Shown in pieces: positions 25,650-36,790 of a stretch of 64,000 bases of DNA. A program made the position numbers and the translations under genes. The notes under the pieces were generated by a model, which saw only the letters and a list, made by a program, of their open reading frames with translations, was not told where the DNA came from and did no database searches. Within the stretch, counting starts at the first letter, position 1. Each line of letters begins with the position of its first letter. The DNA is from Otis tarda (lineage: Eukaryota > Chordata > Aves > Otidiformes > Otididae), in contig CM048552.1 in assembly GCA_026413225.1 (NCBI GenBank), positions 200,459,553-200,523,552 on the forward strand, given 5' to 3'.

Positions 25650-27166
25650 TTCATAGAATCATAGAATCATAGAATGGTTAGAGTTGGAAGGGACCTTCAA
25701 AGGTCATCTAGTCCAACCTCACTGCAAGGATCAGGGACATCCCCAACTAGATCAGGTTGCTCAGAGCCCCAACCAGCCTGGCCTTGAACATTTCCAGGGA
25801 TGGGGCATCCACCACCTCTCTGGGCAACCTGTTCCAGTTTTACTTGCATTGTAAAAAATTTTTTCCTAATATCCAATCTAAATCTACCTCCCTCTATTTT
25901 AAACCCATTACCCCTTGTCCTATCACAACAGGCCCTACTGAACAGCCTCTCCCCATCTTTCTTGTAGGCCCCCTTGAGGTACTGGAAGACCACTATCAGG
26001 TCTCCCTGGAGCCTTCTCTTCTCCAGGCTGAACAGCCCCAACTCTCTCAGCCTGTCCTCATAGGAGAGGTGCTCCAGCCCTGTGATCATCTTCGTGGCCC
26101 TCCTCTGGACCTTCTCCAACTGGTCCATGTCCTTCTTATGTTGGGGGCTCCAGAACTGGACACAGTACTCCAGGTGGGGTCTCACCAGGGCAGAGTAGAG
26201 GGGGAGAATCACCTCCCTCGACCTGCTGGCCACGCTTCTCTTGATGCAGCCCAGGATGCGGTTGGCTTTCTGGGCCGCAAGGGCGCATTGCCTGCTCATG
26301 TTGAGCTTCTCGTCCACCAGCACTCCCAAGTCTTTCTCCTCAGGGCTGCTCTCGATCCATTCTCCGCCCAGCCTGTATTTGTGCTTGGGATTGCCACAAC
26401 CCAGGTGCAGGACCTTGTACTTGGCCTGGTTGAACTTCATGAGGTTGGCACGGGCCCACCTCTCCAGCCTGTCAAGGTCCCTTTGGATGGCATCCTTCCC
26501 TTCCAGCATGTCGACAGCACCACACAGCTTGGTGTCATCAGCGAACTTGCTGAGGGTGCACTCTATCCCACTGTCCATGTCGCTGACAAAGATATTGAAC
26601 AGGGCCGGGCCCAACACGGACCCCTGAGGGACGCCACTCGTGACCGGTCTCCACATGGACATGGAGCTGTTGACCATCACTCCTTGAGTGCGGCCATCCA
26701 GCCAACTCCTTATCCACCGAGTAGTCCGTCCATCAAACCCATGTCTCTCTAGTTTAGAGAGAAGGATGTCATGCGGGACAGTGTCAAAAGCTTTGCACAA
26801 GTCCAGGTAGATGATATCCGTTGCTCGTCCCTTGTCCACCGATGCTGTCATCCCGTCATAGAAGGCCACCAAATTAGTCAGGCATGATCTGCCCTTGGTG
26901 AAGCCATGTTGGCTGTCACCAACCACCTCCTTGCTCTCCATGTGCCTTAGCATAGTTTCCAGGAGAATCTGCTCCATGACCTTGCCAGGCACAGAGGTGA
27001 GGCTGACCGGCCTGTAGTTGCCCGGGTCCTCCTTGTTCCCCTTTTTAAAAATGGGGGTTATGTTCCCTCTCTTCCAGTCATCGGAGACCTCACTAGACCG
27101 CCACGATTTCTCAAATATGATGGCCAGTGGCTTGGCAACTTCAGGCGCCAGTTCCCTCAGGACCTC
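25650..27166 (-). mobile_element. CR1 LINE copy 3, young, 5'-truncated
   Basis: Antisense CR1 with a complete 3' end. The plus strand reads three AATCATAGA-type units (25650-25675), the complement of tandem ATTCTATGA, then the complement of the usual 3' UTR. Homology continues through the whole RT to about 27166, where it stops abruptly in the RT N-terminal part ([20 protein letters not shown]). The flank beyond is unrelated. 5' truncation and lack of poly(A) are typical of CR1. Confidence 0.97.
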
Positions 27167-27181
27167 TCTTTGCTTGCTTTC
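25697..27181 (-). pseudogene. CR1 ORF2 reverse transcriptase, nearly intact, endonuclease missing
   Basis: Open from just after a TAG at 27182-27184 to 25697, about 494 codons. In order: RT N-terminal block ([20 protein letters not shown]), [30 protein letters not shown], and the catalytic box FADDT at 26531-26545 with both Asp present. Then come the [16 protein letters not shown] and [12 protein letters not shown] blocks and the C-terminal [16 protein letters not shown]. Near 25838, after KKFFTM, a small deletion shifts the frame, so the last ~45 codons are wrong. No endonuclease or ORF1 remains and no promoter is present, so it should be inactive. It is the best preserved RT here. I placed the 5' edge at the end of homology rather than at the internal GTG at 26992. 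Confidence 0.95.
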
Positions 27182-30372: not shown

Positions 30373-32430
30373 TCAAATATTTTCTTGGAGCTGGAATTTT
30401 TCACAGGCAAAGGTTATATAACAAGCATATATATAGCAGCTAGTTCTTTCCCATTGCTTTTAGCTGATACCACAGTTTGTTCAGACATCATTTTGAAGGC
30501 GAATTCATTCATAAGCTCACTTTAACACATCCTGAACCAGTAGAAAATATATTGCCATTTCATATTTTAATTAGCACAAATAATTGTTTATTTAATTGCC
30601 AATCTCATCAGTAAAGTGTCTTTAATAAGAAGATACAGGCAGTTCCAAGCTCATATGTTCTTCCACAGTAAAATTCTCAAGGGCTATTTTCAATTAAATA
30701 TTCTGTTAACCATTATGAGGCTTTCTGAATCAATGGATTTTGCTTTTCTTTTCCAAAGTTAGCTATTTGCTGTGCTTCCCCTCACCATTTTTTTTCTCCT
30801 TGTGGAATGAATGACAGTGAAGTAAAAGACTCAATCAAATAAGGTTAATAGATTTTTAAATTAGAAGGAATATCACAATCTTTAATAGCCTGACTCGCTA
30901 AATAGTGCAAGCTATAGAAACTCTCCTAGTGATTCCTGCATTCAGTCTACATCTCTTTAAATTTTAGCACATCCATTGGAAAGTTATCCAGTCTTGATGT
31001 ACAGACTTCCAGAGGTAGAATCCAGTACACCTCTACCTGTTCTATTTTTGGTAAATTATCCTGAAAGGTTATACCACGTACCAAACATCTTTTATCAGGT
31101 TTTGATATCACTTTTCATGGTAAATAGAGCTATCAGGAATTAGTTCCTGTGTTGTTACTTGTAGATCACTGGCAAATCATGCCTTAATCCCTGTTTGAGC
31201 ATATTACATGCACTTTTCTTGCTATTGTCCTTACTATAAAAATGTTTTTCAGAGATGCATAATTAACTAAGCTCTTCCATGAGATGTTTCCACTTTTTTT
31301 TTCAGCATGGAAAACACTGAAAAATGTATACAGATGTCATATTTCTTATCTACTTCCTCTTAATACTCTGCAGCTTATATTTCAATGTAATACTTTCTTT
31401 CCTAATTATAGCAATACACTGACAGATAATTTCCCATAGTTTATCTATCAGTACAATTAATTCTCAGAAGTGTCATCATATTCCCCTGCTAAGAGTTTAT
31501 ATTCTTAGACATATGGAATTTGACTTATTTCTGTTAATTAACATTTTGTTCAATGGATATCACCTTACTAAGTGATAGACCACTTTGTAAAACTAGTCTG
31601 TCATCATAATTATTTACCAGTTTAGAAGGATTACTCCACTGGCAAGCTGTGACACTGATTACTTTGACTTTCTCCCATAAATTTACTAGAAAATTTGAAC
31701 TGCTGTGAAGCAAAATTCCGATCTCTGTGGCAGGATTACACCTTAGACAAGATGGTGTATTGGCAAATTTATTTCATTTTTGCATTTAACTAGTCTTCAT
31801 TCTGTTGTAATGATGTTAGATTTTGTGAAATTCTTTTATTTGACAACTGTGATACTAAAGACTAAGTAAAATGTCTTGCCAACATCTATTATACCTACTG
31901 AGCTTTTTTTGTCATCCAAATTTTTTTATATCATATTTGTTTGGCAGAGTTAAATAAAAGTTACAGAAATCCTTTTTGATTGCTATTAATTATTTCAACA
32001 TCCTTTTATTTTTATATGAATGCCTTCCATATTCAACAATTACTTGGACTTAGTAGAGCTTTGAATGCACTATGTTTTAGTGATTGGACACCAGATTTCT
32101 AAAAACTGAAAGAATGGCTGATTTTGAAAATAAGAGAAATCAACTAAATATTCACTATGAAAGGCAAAAAAAAAGAGCCATCAATAGCTTCACTATATTT
32201 GGGGAATAAATGACAGTTTCAGACAATGAATACATAAGGCAAAAAATGTACTCTTTGACTAAAATTTGGAAAGAAGAAAAATAAATGCTTTTCCATACAT
32301 AGTTTTAACAGCATTATGCATATATGTGACTGGCTGATTTATTACAAGCATTGCACATTTTCACAAAAATCTTTTACTTTAACCTATTTCCAGCTGAAAA
32401 GTATTAGTCACATTATTACTAAGACCATTT
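30373..32430. other. unique AT-rich non-coding DNA
   Basis: No gene or transposon recognised. It is strongly AT-rich up to the abrupt change to CpG-rich sequence at about 32431. Confidence 0.65.
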
Positions 32431-32545
32431 TGGGGAGCGCGGCGCTGTCCGCTGGCCGCTGCCTGAGCGGCGCCGCCCTGGCGGGGCGAGGTGCGGTGGC
32501 TCCTTCCGCCGGGAGCGGCGCCGGGCGGCAGGGAGAGGCAGACAT
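32431..32545 (+). other. CpG-dense patch in AT-rich surroundings
   Basis: I count about 17 CpG in roughly 112 bases, with several GGCGCCG-type motifs, bordered on the left by ordinary AT-rich DNA. It is interpreted as the retroposed leader of the TECPR1-like fragment. It resembles a tiny CpG island, but no TATA or initiator can be assigned. Confidence 0.7.
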
Positions 32546-32622
32546 GGCCATGCCCAGTTCCCTTTTGTGGGCTGTTGACATTTTTGGGAGGGTTTACACT
32601 CTGTCTACTGTTGGCCAGTACT
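32431..32622 (+). pseudogene. TECPR1: TECPR1-like mRNA 5' end (leader + first ~24 codons) fused to CR1
   Basis: About 113 bases of very GC-rich sequence lead to two in-frame ATGs (32544 and 32550). Reading from the second gives a 24-residue segment ending GQY at 32619-32621. It contains [16 protein letters not shown]. From memory, human TECPR1 starts with a near-identical segment (about 20 of 24 residues match, with Y at residue 24). TECPR1 is an autophagy-lysosome adaptor of over 1100 residues, so this is only its extreme N-terminus. After GQY the expected Trp is absent. Nine bases of unclear origin follow, then CR1 in the same sense. The TECPR1 frame is not the CR1 frame and stops at about 32661, so no fusion protein is made. 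The GC-rich part fits a 5' UTR. A missing intron between leader and coding exon would prove an mRNA source, but I cannot see that from this window alone. Confidence 0.75.
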
Positions 32623-32630
32623 TAAAATTT

Positions 32631-33722
32631 ATGGGTTCGATGGATGGACCACTCGGTGGATAAGGAGTTGGCTGGATGGCCGCACTCAGAGAGTGGTGGT
32701 CAACGGCTCAATGTCCAAGTGGAGACCGGTCACCAGTGGCGTCCCTCAGGGGTCCGTGTTGGGCCCGGCCCTGTTCAACATCTTTGTCGGCGACATGGAC
32801 AGTGGGATAGAGTGCACCCTCAGCAAGTTCGCTGATGACACCAAGCTGTGTGGTGCCGTCGACTCGCTGGAAGGGAGGGATGCCATCCAGAGGGACCTTG
32901 ACAGGCTGGAGAGGTGGGCCCATGCCAACCTCATGAAGTTCAACCAGGCCAAGTGCAAGGTCCTGCACCTGGGTCGTGGCAATCCCAGGCACAAATACAG
33001 GCTGGGCGGAGAATGGATTGAGAGCAGCCCTGAGGAGAAAGACTTGGGAGTGCTGGTGGATGAGAAGCTCAACATGAGCAGGCAATGCGCCCTTGCGGCC
33101 CAGAAGGCCAACCGCATCCTGGGCTGCATCAAGAGGAGCGTGGCCAGCAGGTCGAGGGAGGTGATTCTGCCCCTCTACTCTGCCCTGGTGAGACCCCACC
33201 TGGAGTACTGCGTCCAGTTCTGGAGTCCCCAACACAAGAAGGACATGGACCAGTTGGAAAGGGTCCAGAGGAGGGCCACAAAGATGATCACAGGGCTGGA
33301 GCACCTCTCCTATGAGCACAGGCTGAGAGAGTTGGGGCTGTTCAACCTGGAGAAGAGGAGGCTCCGGGGAGACCTGATAGCGGTCTTCCAGTACCTCAAG
33401 GGGGCCCTACAGGAAAGATGGGGAGAGGCTGTTCAGTAGGGCCTGTTGTGATAGGACAAGGGGTAATGGGTTTAAATTAGAAGGAGGTAGGTTTAGATTA
33501 GATATTAGAAAAAAATTTTTTACAATGAGAGTTGTAGAGCACTGGAACAGGTTGCCCAGAGAGGTGGTGGATGCCCCATCCCTGGAAATGTTCAAGGCCA
33601 GGCTGGATGAGGCTCTGAGCAACCTGATCTAGTCAGGGATGTCCCTGCTTCTTGAAGGGGGGTTGGACTAGATGACCTTTGAAGGTCCCTTCTGACTCTA
33701 ACCATTCTATGATTCTATGATT
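32631..33722 (+). mobile_element. CR1 LINE copy 5, young, 5' end chimeric
   Basis: Sense CR1 beginning inside the RT at the codons for GFDG (32633). It continues through the catalytic box, the C-terminal block and the 3' UTR to two ATTCTATGA-type units (about 33703-33722). Divergence from copy 3 is low. Its 5' side is joined to the TECPR1-like fragment rather than to ordinary flank, so the whole insertion probably spans 32431-33722. Confidence 0.96.
32633..33439 (+). pseudogene. CR1 RT C-terminal two-thirds, FADD box intact
   Basis: Open frame from 32633, though the first usable start codon is later (GTG at 32693). Seen in order: [34 protein letters not shown] at 32828-32842 with both catalytic Asp, [44 protein letters not shown]. 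An extra C in the ggggccctac stretch at 33401-33410 shifts the frame, which then ends at 33439. The remaining C-terminal codons lie in another frame. The RT N-terminal part, linker and endonuclease are missing, so it is inactive. Confidence 0.94.
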
Positions 33723-35646
33723 TTTTTCCATATGCATGTATAACATCAATGACAAGTGTAAGCAAAAAACCAGCCATTCTTTGTGCATTATTCATTATAA
33801 CATTGTTTTCACTATATATTTCTCTGTGAAAATTGGCTAATTACAGAAGCCTATGGCCACACTTAAGCACTGACCATATTAGTATCTCTGATGGTTTGGT
33901 TGGACATTTGTAAATGCCTGTAGTTTTCCAAAAGGTAGTGGATTTCATAAATTGTCAATGTTGCAAAGTGTTTGTGTAGATTCGTATTCTGCAGAGCAAA
34001 ACATCTCAGTTCTTCTGATGGCACCAATTTTCTTCAACTTAGTAATGAGGAAATTCCTTCACCTTAAGTGACAAGGGACTTCGTTGTTTTTTCTCTTCTG
34101 AGTTTTTATGGGTAGCTGCATTCAACAGTGAAGAAATCCTGTAGGTCACTAAAGACTAAAACTACAAAATATTACCTGAATTTTTGTCCTCAGTTTTTTC
34201 AGAAAACAGTGTTATTTGAGGAAAACATAGACCATTAAGGCACTGAAACACTATTTCCTTCAGCTTTGTAGTGACTTTTAAAAATTTTCATATAAAGTAA
34301 AAAATTAAGTTAATTTTTACTTACCAAATGCCATAGTATAAGAGCCACACAATTTTGCAATATAAAATATAGCTTAAGAAAAATTTTCCTTTAATCTTGC
34401 ATTGTTTCAACCCAAGCCTTTCTCCTGGAGTTTTATGAAAATGATAATTAAAAATAATCAAATCATATGCATCATTAAAATCTGTTTTAAATGGGTTCAA
34501 ATACAGAATACAAAAAAACCCTTTTACTATTATTTCAAATACTAAAAATAATCCCACATCCAGGACTGTCTATAATGTTTAGAGCTTTCAATTTAAAAGC
34601 TATCCTACTCTTGGCATTCACCCTTACTTAATTATTTCTTACTTCGGGAGAATGACTCCTTCTCTGTCCAAGGCAGCAGCTGCATCATATTGATATAATC
34701 CAAACAGGGCAAAAAATGTATTTGTTATTCTCGCTTGGACAGATGACTTGAGGAGCCTCTATATAGAAAATGTCATGTAAAGTAACAATACTGTCTCTTT
34801 GAGGCAAATCCATCTGCTGCTGTTTACTAAGTTCCTTTCACATATCAAGCTTTCTTTTTATTTCCTTCATTATAGAGTTATTTGTGTCCCATTAATTATT
34901 CTTACTAAAAACAAAACAAAACAAAACAAAACAAAACAAATAAACTCCAGATCCTAAAAGTACAGTATTTAATACTTTCCATTTTTTCCAGAATAGTATT
35001 TTTTTTCAAGGGAGATGTTGTATTATGACTTAGAGGTCATTCATTTCATGTTTAAGTATGGAACTTTGACTACCAAATACACCATTGAGACCAGGTAATT
35101 GATTTGCATTTAAATTACTTTGATTTTAGTTTTGGTCTTTTTTTCCCCCAGCATTTCTTTGTGACACATTAGCTGTCTGCCTAACTCACAAGAGCTTTAT
35201 TACCCTTGAGCCACGTCAAAGTTCGTCAAGTTTGATGCCCTGTTTCCAGTGGTGACAAAAACCAGCAATAGCTGGAGAGAGACACAAAGCTGTGTAGGAG
35301 ATCTTGCCCACCATAGCAACCTCCACTCATTTCCAAGAGCCACGAAGAATTAAGCTTTGTATTCTCCTTCACAGAAAGTAGTTCAACAGTAAGTAATCAT
35401 GCAATCATCTCTATAAATACCAAATATGTTTTTGATTCCCAGCCTCACTGGTCTTGTCTTCACCTTCAAAAAATGCCAAGTTCTAGATACCCATACTTTC
35501 AGCCGCTCCATTAAAAGCTGATTTCCTTAACTACAATTTTAAATTCTTGGTATTCCAGCCAATTCATTGACTTTTCCAAACTCTTGAGTTTCATCAATTA
35601 AAAAAAAAAAAGTTTGTTTTATACCTTTGGCTATTTATAATAATTT
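33723..35646. other. unique AT-rich non-coding DNA
   Basis: No gene or transposon recognised apart from the (AAAAC)n microsatellite at 34906-34940. Confidence 0.65.
34906..34940. repeat. (AAAAC)n microsatellite
   Basis: About seven AAAAC units in a row, no mismatch noticed. Confidence 0.93.
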
Positions 35647-36790
35647 AGAATCATAGAATGGTTTGAGTTGGAAGGGACCTTAAACATCATCTAGTTCAAA
35701 TCTCCCTGCCATGGGCAGGGACACCTTCCACTAGACCAGGTCGCTCAAAGCCTCATCCAGCCTGACCTTGAACAATTCCAGGGATGGTGCGTCTACAACT
35801 TTTCCGGGCAATCTGTTCCAGTGCCTCACCACTACTGCAGTGAAGAATTTCTTCCTTATATCTAATCTAAATCTCCACTGTTTTAGTTTAAAGCCATTAC
35901 TCCTTGTTCTATCACTACATGCTCTTGTCAAAAGTCCCTCTCCAGCTTTCTTGTAGGCCCCCTTGAGGTACTGGAAGACCGCTATCAGGTTTCCCCGGAG
36001 CCTTCTCTTCTCCAGGCTGAACAGCCCCAACTCTCTCAGCCTGTCCTCATAGGAGAGGTGGAACCAGGTATCCAACTCCTTCTCAGCCTCCCTGATGCTA
36101 CACAGCCTTCTCATTGACTCCAGCAGCTCAACCACCTGCCGCAGGAGCTCTTCCACCTGTGCTCACCTTCTGCAGGCAGTGCTGCTGCCCGTCCCTGCCC
36201 CAGGAGAAAAGTCCGGGCACTTCCTGCAGTCTGGGGTCTGCACTGCAGCCTCTCCTTTCAGCACCTCTGTCTGCATGGAGGCATTGGCCACCACTGGGGT
36301 AGCTGGTGCAGACCCCCCCAGCCGGAGCTGCAGCCTTTGCTCTCAGACAAGTGCCCACCATTCTGCCTTGAGGGTCAAGTAAGACAAGTGCCCTCGACCT
36401 GTGCCGATGGTCAGACCTGCACAGAACATTGCCTGGTTGCGGGGTTATGTATGCTTTAAGTCTCTCACTTGGCCAGAGAAGTGCCCCTCCTTTGAAGAAA
36501 TACCCTCCCACACAAACTGAGGTGAGAGGTCTTGCACAAACTGCTGTGCCATGCCCTGGCTGCCGCACCACGCCCTGTTTGCCCATCCTAATCATGGTGC
36601 TCCTGATCACCAGCACTCCCCAGAGCTGCCTTTCGTGGGAGTTTGGGGTGGCAGCCATTACTCCTGGCCCTGCCCACGCCTTGTCAGATGCTCTTGTCAG
36701 AGCTGCCTACTCCCGTTGGGGGGTGTCTCTGCTCCCCTGGGGTTTCCCTGTGTCAGGAATCCCCTCTGTATGCCATGATCCTCCACTCCA
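35647..36790 (-). mobile_element. CR1 LINE copy 6: 5' region/ORF1 joined to 3' end
   Basis: Antisense CR1 with 3' tail AATCATAGA at 35647 and normal 3' UTR and ORF2 C-terminal sequence up to 36060. At 36060/36061 it changes directly to CR1 ORF1-type sequence (to about 36300). The GC-rich region beyond, to about 36790, is probably the rest of ORF1 and the 5' UTR. The outer limit is uncertain because I judged it by the return to AT-rich DNA near 36840. The whole middle of the element (most of ORF1, the endonuclease and the RT core) is missing. Confidence 0.8.
35731..36300 (-). pseudogene. CR1 ORF1 coiled-coil fragment fused in frame to ORF2 C-terminus
   Basis: Reading the minus strand from 36300: segments NASMQTE and AAVQTP (ORF1-type QT repeats), then CRKCP, a TGA stop at 36163-36165, then QVEELLRQVVELLESMRRLC and REAEKELDTW. 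This heptad-like Leu-rich stretch resembles the coiled coil of CR1 ORF1. The next codons (F, then [20 protein letters not shown]) are ORF2 C-terminal sequence in the same frame, and the reading continues to LSDLV and a stop at 35731. The 141-codon frame from the ATG at 36156 is therefore an ORF1-ORF2 fusion. ORF1 in intact elements is an RNA-binding protein. No activity is expected here. ORF1 identity rests on remembered family features. Confidence 0.75.

Follow-up and report, generated by a model that had tools for sequence, protein, structure and literature searches.

How the beginning of a host messenger RNA came to stand directly in front of a CR1 retrotransposon, in the same orientation and in otherwise ordinary DNA, is the question raised by a locus on contig C1 of Otis tarda. 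We analysed the 64,000-nt stretch C1:200459553-200523552 (hereafter the window) and searched with it, and with its parts, a genome of 1.198 Gb. The original prediction had described a CpG-rich leader with an ATG and 24 codons resembling TECPR1, a 9-base joint and a 5'-truncated CR1, and had proposed that the CR1 reverse transcriptase switched from its own RNA to the TECPR1 mRNA. The layout that emerged from the analysis, in window positions, is as follows.

32427..32431, no strand assigned: candidate target-site duplication ATTTT, 5' copy, equal to 33720-33724
32432..32432, plus strand: extra G between target and mRNA copy, where the gene has T (GT/GGGAGC)
32433..32541, plus strand: copy of TECPR1 exon 1 (5' UTR), 105/109 identical to C15:7787322-7787430
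32542..32622, plus strand: copy of the first 81 nt of TECPR1 exon 2, 100% identical to C15:7790515-7790595
32623..32630, plus strand: joint TAAAATTT, 8 nt, matching neither partner
32631..33719, plus strand: 5'-truncated CR1, from the reverse transcriptase part to the 3' end, 1,089 nt
33720..33724, no strand assigned: candidate target-site duplication ATTTT, 3' copy, equal to 32427-32431

A spliced mRNA start and a truncated CR1

The leader and the coding piece both lead to a gene on C15, which we take to be TECPR1. In the fetched gene region, exon 1 (C15:7787322-7787430) is followed by GTGAGG, and exon 2 starts at C15:7790515 after TTTCAG and ends with GAATCAG before GTATGT, the two being separated by a GT...AG intron of 3,084 nt. 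The gene is intact and multi-exonic, with exons 3, 4 and later ones present; the true TECPR1 locus is the one on C15 and not the insert. When joined, its exons 2-4 give a Pfam match to Pex24p (E 3.4e-11) and the whole of exon 2 matches Tectonin 2 weakly (E 0.02), while the 26-residue piece carried by the window gave one chance match only (E 1.4) when compared with solved structures.

From the window copy the 3,084-nt intron is precisely absent, and the match holds no intron sequence, which bears out the expectation of an exon 1-exon 2 junction without intron. The exon 1 match extends over 109 nt (96%, E 2e-48) and that of exon 2 over 84 nt (100%, E 3e-40), the latter including a CAG with which both exon 1 and the intron finish. 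Because the two matches are collinear on either side of a GT...AG intron, a chance resemblance to TECPR1 is excluded. Both the CpG-rich leader and the ATG with TECPR1 codons thus stand, with corrected limits: the match starts at 32433 and not at 32431, beginning GGGAGCGCGG and preceded by G in the window and by T in the gene, and from the ATG at 32544 it runs for 26 codons plus one nucleotide instead of 24 codons.

Only four differences separate this half from the gene in 190 nt, each of them a change of CpG to TpG or CpA on the insert side (4/42 CpG bases, compared with 0/148 non-CpG bases); since all four represent CpG decay in the insert, C15 is the source and the window copy is young. A leader query (32431-32560) returned two genome matches at E<=0.001, the C15 gene and the window chimera, and the query with the whole of exon 2 returned the gene, plus the window for the first 79 coding bases. 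As each part is found solely in these two places, the insert is single. A variant CR1 5' UTR, which would place the same leader in front of other CR1 copies, was likewise rejected, the TECPR1 gene being the only match to the leader elsewhere in the genome.

At its 3' side the copy breaks off after GCCAGTACT, where the gene continues GGGAGCTC. The break lies inside exon 2 and the next bases of the gene are GG, so that it coincides neither with the end of an exon nor with a GT donor. The 3' part of the mRNA and the poly(A) tail of an ordinary processed pseudogene are absent here, and CR1 follows the exon 2 piece. Translation through the joint would give 26 TECPR1 codons, 13 further codons and a stop; the chimeric product is probably a dead fragment, and it lacks any sequence from before the presumed start site.

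The second half was correctly recognised as a 5'-truncated CR1 in the same orientation, and the frame 32579-33436 contains the Pfam domain RVT_1 (E 1.4e-15). It ends ATTCTATGATTCTATG, a CR1-type 3' end with two ATTCTATG units, and is 94% identical to a CR1 copy within the window; four further genome copies, retrieved as far as their 3' ends, are 97.6-97.9% identical to it over 1,089-1,090 nt. One CR1 copy in the window (25697-27181, minus strand) has a 494-codon stop-to-stop open frame over its reverse transcriptase part. The 26-base sequence with which the CR1 half starts has 1,844 exact occurrences in the genome; when two mismatches are allowed, the number rises to at least 3,957. In all 20 of the copies sampled with this start, CR1 sequence extends further upstream. 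By its sequence, then, this half is an ordinary 5'-truncated member of a large young family.

Nine other best matches to the CR1 start gave the impression of a fixed 5' end, as seven begin at the same base, an eighth also starts there but repeats its first bases, and one continues upstream. This is a sampling effect, because that first sample was picked by a rare word at the joint. A short CR1 family with a fixed start was accordingly rejected: 20 of the first 21 exact-start places listed continue as ordinary CR1, the 21st (C1:10158056) being one of the seven same-base copies. In one CR1 copy with repeated first bases (L035, C2:68325979, minus strand; TTATGGGTTCGATAGATGGGTTCGATGG) it looks as if copying had restarted at the same point. 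A base other than C precedes the truncation point in 12 of the 1,844 exact copies, the window one included, against about 3 expected if one goes by the 20 sampled copies, which show 3 truncations within 90 nt, and position 32631 may perhaps mark a mild truncation or pausing site of CR1.

In a comparison with the four retrieved copies and one more, 12 private changes, 4 of them at CpG, were counted in the CR1 half over 1,071 columns, and the five copies themselves have 5, 5, 6, 6 and 23. If the neutral rate is about 2e-9 per year, 12/1,071 would place the insertion, very roughly, at 5 million years, with which the mRNA half does not disagree. Both halves are young by their substitutions.

Joint, edges and flanks

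A short joint had been foreseen correctly, but it comprises 8 bases (32623-32630), not 9. It differs from the continuation of exon 2 in the gene, and on the other side the longer CR1 copies carry GAGAG(G/A)C before ATGGG in 20/20 sampled; because all of these have C, and not T, at the last position, the CR1 start was set at A32631. We term the 8 nt untemplated only because a string of this length could not be traced to a source.

At the 5' edge, a T followed by G is an acceptable transcription start dinucleotide, and copying of an mRNA cap would yield one extra G, so that the additional G at 32432 is possibly a copy of the cap. The ATTTT repeat that bounds the insertion lends weak, suggestive support, since a match of at least 5 bp at such a boundary arises at 2.0% of 2,640 flank positions. 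Neither the repeat nor the extra G is conclusive, but both would fit an insertion in which the capped end of an mRNA was added by target-primed synthesis. The flanks are AT-rich as described, with a GC content of about 0.25-0.38 in the kilobase on each side. In the 4 kb of 3' flank, one stretch matched the TECPR1 region (39 nt, 82%, E 4.5e-4); it is not an exon, because here a CR1 3' end near 35641-35679 meets a CR1 remnant inside the gene, and no further TECPR1 exon was found in these 4 kb. An Rfam search of the window returned no match.

U6 and U2 copies that run into CR1

Other cellular RNAs were examined for the same arrangement. A search with U6 (RF00026), in which 48 of 129,421 candidates were scored, gave at least 15 matches, 7 of them over the Rfam cut-off, and these 15 U6-like loci were viewed together with their flanks, 200 nt on the upstream side and about 300 nt on the downstream side. 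In five of the 15, which also have the highest scores, the U6 part gives way to a same-strand CR1, with no more than 13 nt between them:

C1:119013401-119013506, plus strand: U6-CR1 fusion (L060)
C1:135989552-135989658, minus strand: U6-CR1 fusion (L061)
C40:48583494-48583600, plus strand: U6-CR1 fusion (L062)
C4:31536036-31536142, minus strand: U6-CR1 fusion (L063)
C4:35013693-35013794, plus strand: U6-CR1 fusion (L064)

At the junction, the match to U6 and the match to CR1 share 4 nt in L060, 4 nt in L061 and 2 nt in L062, and are separated by 6 nt in L064 and by 13 mostly A nucleotides in L063, where U6 stops at position 84. Assuming a CR1 density of 30 copies per 264 kb (33 matched stretches), the chance of finding such an arrangement in five of 15 loci is about 1e-12, or 3e-10 with the density tripled. 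CR1 was found upstream of U6, within 200 nt, at none of the 15 loci, and no clear target-site duplication was seen at the U6-CR1 copies inspected. The CR1 of L061 is old (68% identical to a CR1 copy on the same chromosome), and identity of the CR1 parts to the window copies ranges over the five from 66-70% up to 86-89%, which makes switching between CR1 and U6 look long-standing. In a further locus, L065, CR1-like sequence lies 24 to 53 nt past the U6 part. Another, L066 (C2:43107806), contains U6 positions 49-106 with a different dispersed repeat on both sides, a repeat present also at about C1:200364870-200365414.

The corresponding search with U2 (RF00004) gave 35 matches. Of these, 26 lie on C38, with 22 in one array at C38:732552-773686, mostly 1.5-2 kb apart; the nine dispersed ones were inspected. 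Same-strand CR1 adjoins one of the nine dispersed U2-like loci:

C3:49541998-49542156 (and L077): U2-like copy running into CR1, the CR1 94% identical to a copy within the window and the last 20 matched bases already CR1

Clear CR1 at the end was absent in 10/15 U6-like and 8/9 dispersed U2-like loci, so template switching is not the sole fate of these RNAs. The fusions of U6 and U2 with CR1 provide independent support for the reading of the mRNA insert and suggest that the CR1 enzyme switches repeatedly.

A probable template switch, its rivals and known chimeras

We consider a single CR1 retrotransposition with a template switch onto the TECPR1 mRNA to be the best explanation of the insertion, with a probability of roughly 0.78. 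From 5' to 3', and in one orientation, the insertion consists of spliced TECPR1 mRNA (exon 1 and 81 nt of exon 2), 8 nt and a 5'-truncated CR1. Target-primed synthesis by the CR1 reverse transcriptase would have set out from the 3' end of a CR1 RNA, of which some 1,089 nt were copied. The enzyme would next have abandoned that template, inserted a few bases belonging to neither RNA and continued at codon 26 of a TECPR1 mRNA, present either whole or as a 5' fragment. On reaching the capped 5' end, where it may have copied one G of the cap, the product would have been joined to the target. Such a switch explains the splicing, the orientation, the end within an exon, the joint and the recurrence with other RNAs. 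It is the mechanism originally put forward, now supported by the mid-exon break and by the failure to find a source CR1 in the 69.9 kb around the gene, with the point of entry moved from about codon 24 to codon 26.

The main rival is ligation of a cleaved TECPR1 5' fragment to cleaved CR1 RNA before reverse transcription, the fused RNA then being retrotransposed. It would yield an identical layout and accounts for ends both inside an exon and inside CR1, and RNA ligation (RtcB) is named beside template switching for U6/LINE-1 chimeras in PMC13174262. Simple ligation would not, however, add 8 bases that match neither side; the U6 junctions, with overlaps of 4, 4 and 2 nt and gaps of 6 and 13 nt, do not separate ligation from switching. 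We regard ligation as weakly disfavoured by the joint and, overall, as unlikely. A different route, given as the alternative in the original prediction, is 5' transduction, in which a transcript initiated at TECPR1 was spliced, in cis or in trans, into a CR1 and retrotransposed. Sense orientation, a transcript start and spliced exons are indeed typical of the 17 human L1 chimeras with mRNAs and lncRNAs (PMC13174262), for which such an origin was inferred. Here, no splice signal accounts for the joint, because the TECPR1 copy ends inside an exon: the gene goes on with GG, not GT, so the mRNA part does not end at a donor, and the CR1 side offers no acceptor, the first base being preceded in 20/20 sampled longer copies by C and not by AG. 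Most of the human elements are, moreover, close to full length, in contrast to this strongly truncated CR1.

A source CR1 in or near the gene was also rejected. The 69.9 kb around TECPR1 gave no match at E<=1e-3 to the CR1 copies of the window, and an extended query set found only remnants of 31-41 nt in this region: an antisense CR1 3' end of about 40 nt inside the gene (C15:7795757-7795803, 82-83% alike, E down to 5e-6) and a match of 31 nt beyond it (C15:7832355, E 0.004). Neither remnant can have served as the source. The break without a GT donor and the scarcity of CR1 near the gene together favour template switching, and the splicing route is very unlikely. Comparably improbable is that a CR1 and a 5' fragment of TECPR1 mRNA landed side by side in separate events; this requires an mRNA copy without 3' end or poly(A), 8 nt from the 5' end of a CR1 and on the same strand, and the 4 kb of 3' flank holds no further exon of the gene. 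That the joint was made in sequencing or assembly is the least probable of all, as the insert has undergone CpG decay of its own (4/4 changes fall in it) and its surroundings, in a contig of 216 Mb, are ordinary flank.

The CR1 reverse transcriptase is not known to copy poly(A) mRNAs, because it needs its own 3' end. The insertion suggests that it can copy host mRNA after synthesis has begun, so that the block would lie at initiation and not at elongation, and the fusions with U6 and U2 make this idea testable across bird genomes. Whether the enzyme regularly jumps in mid-synthesis to host RNAs, making switching a real route of entry for U6, U2 and capped mRNA 5' ends in this lineage, is a generalization to which we would give even odds. 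If it is true, scans for retrocopies that are built on mRNA 3' ends or on long coding matches would miss such inserts, which would at the same time record mRNA 5' ends and the activity of CR1 through time. The shortage of chicken retrocopies has been attributed to CR1 in PMC3136929 and PMC2048973.

Chimeras made by LINE template switching are already known, and the window apparently holds the first clean case of a host mRNA for CR1. Among the literature matches listed, which lie mostly outside the subscription literature, there was no CR1-host mRNA chimera, the nearest being a turkey U6/CR1 copy and a proposed switch to a tRNA. PMC4476161 reports one turkey U6/CR1-like copy, left open owing to an assembly gap; it likewise combines CR1 with a cellular RNA in a bird, but the mRNA case and the five U6 cases described here read through the joint. 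The origin of PittSINE was proposed, in PMC5729268, to lie in a switch of the CR1 reverse transcriptase to a tRNA, so that template switching by the avian CR1 enzyme is proposed in both instances, with the difference that PittSINE is a SINE family derived from a tRNA, whereas we describe one insertion derived from an mRNA. The 17 human L1 chimeras found in hg38 (PMC13174262) mostly involve near full-length L1; six of their joints fall precisely at splice donors, splicing was inferred for them, and four contain short untemplated sequence. They share with the window insertion the start of a spliced host transcript fused in sense to a LINE, and differ from it in that the break here is within an exon and the LINE is truncated.

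The closest parallel is offered by the chimeric retrogenes of PMC2104539, which describes bipartite examples in mammals and WEIRD-MGL in Magnaporthe, lists the marks of LINE template switching and names mRNAs among the 5' parts. As in these, a cellular RNA at the 5' side and a 5'-truncated LINE at the 3' side, in the same orientation, are joined in one insertion. Set against the marks listed there, the LINE is 5'-truncated, starting at 32631, and the orientation of the parts is the same, with 8 nt between them where direct joining is described. In place of a full-length cellular RNA, the insertion holds only the initial 190 nt of the mRNA. As regards random truncation sites, copies with a base other than C at this point (12/1,844, about 3 expected) are perhaps mildly enriched; the short direct repeats would be represented by ATTTT, of 5 bp, expected in 2% of cases by chance. 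The differences from those chimeras are thus that the LINE is CR1, that the mRNA was entered at codon 26 and not copied in full, that an 8-nt joint is present and that the direct repeat measures only 5 bp. The window insertion works like the LINE template-switch chimeric retrogenes of PMC2104539, and is a variant of them in its partial copy of the mRNA.
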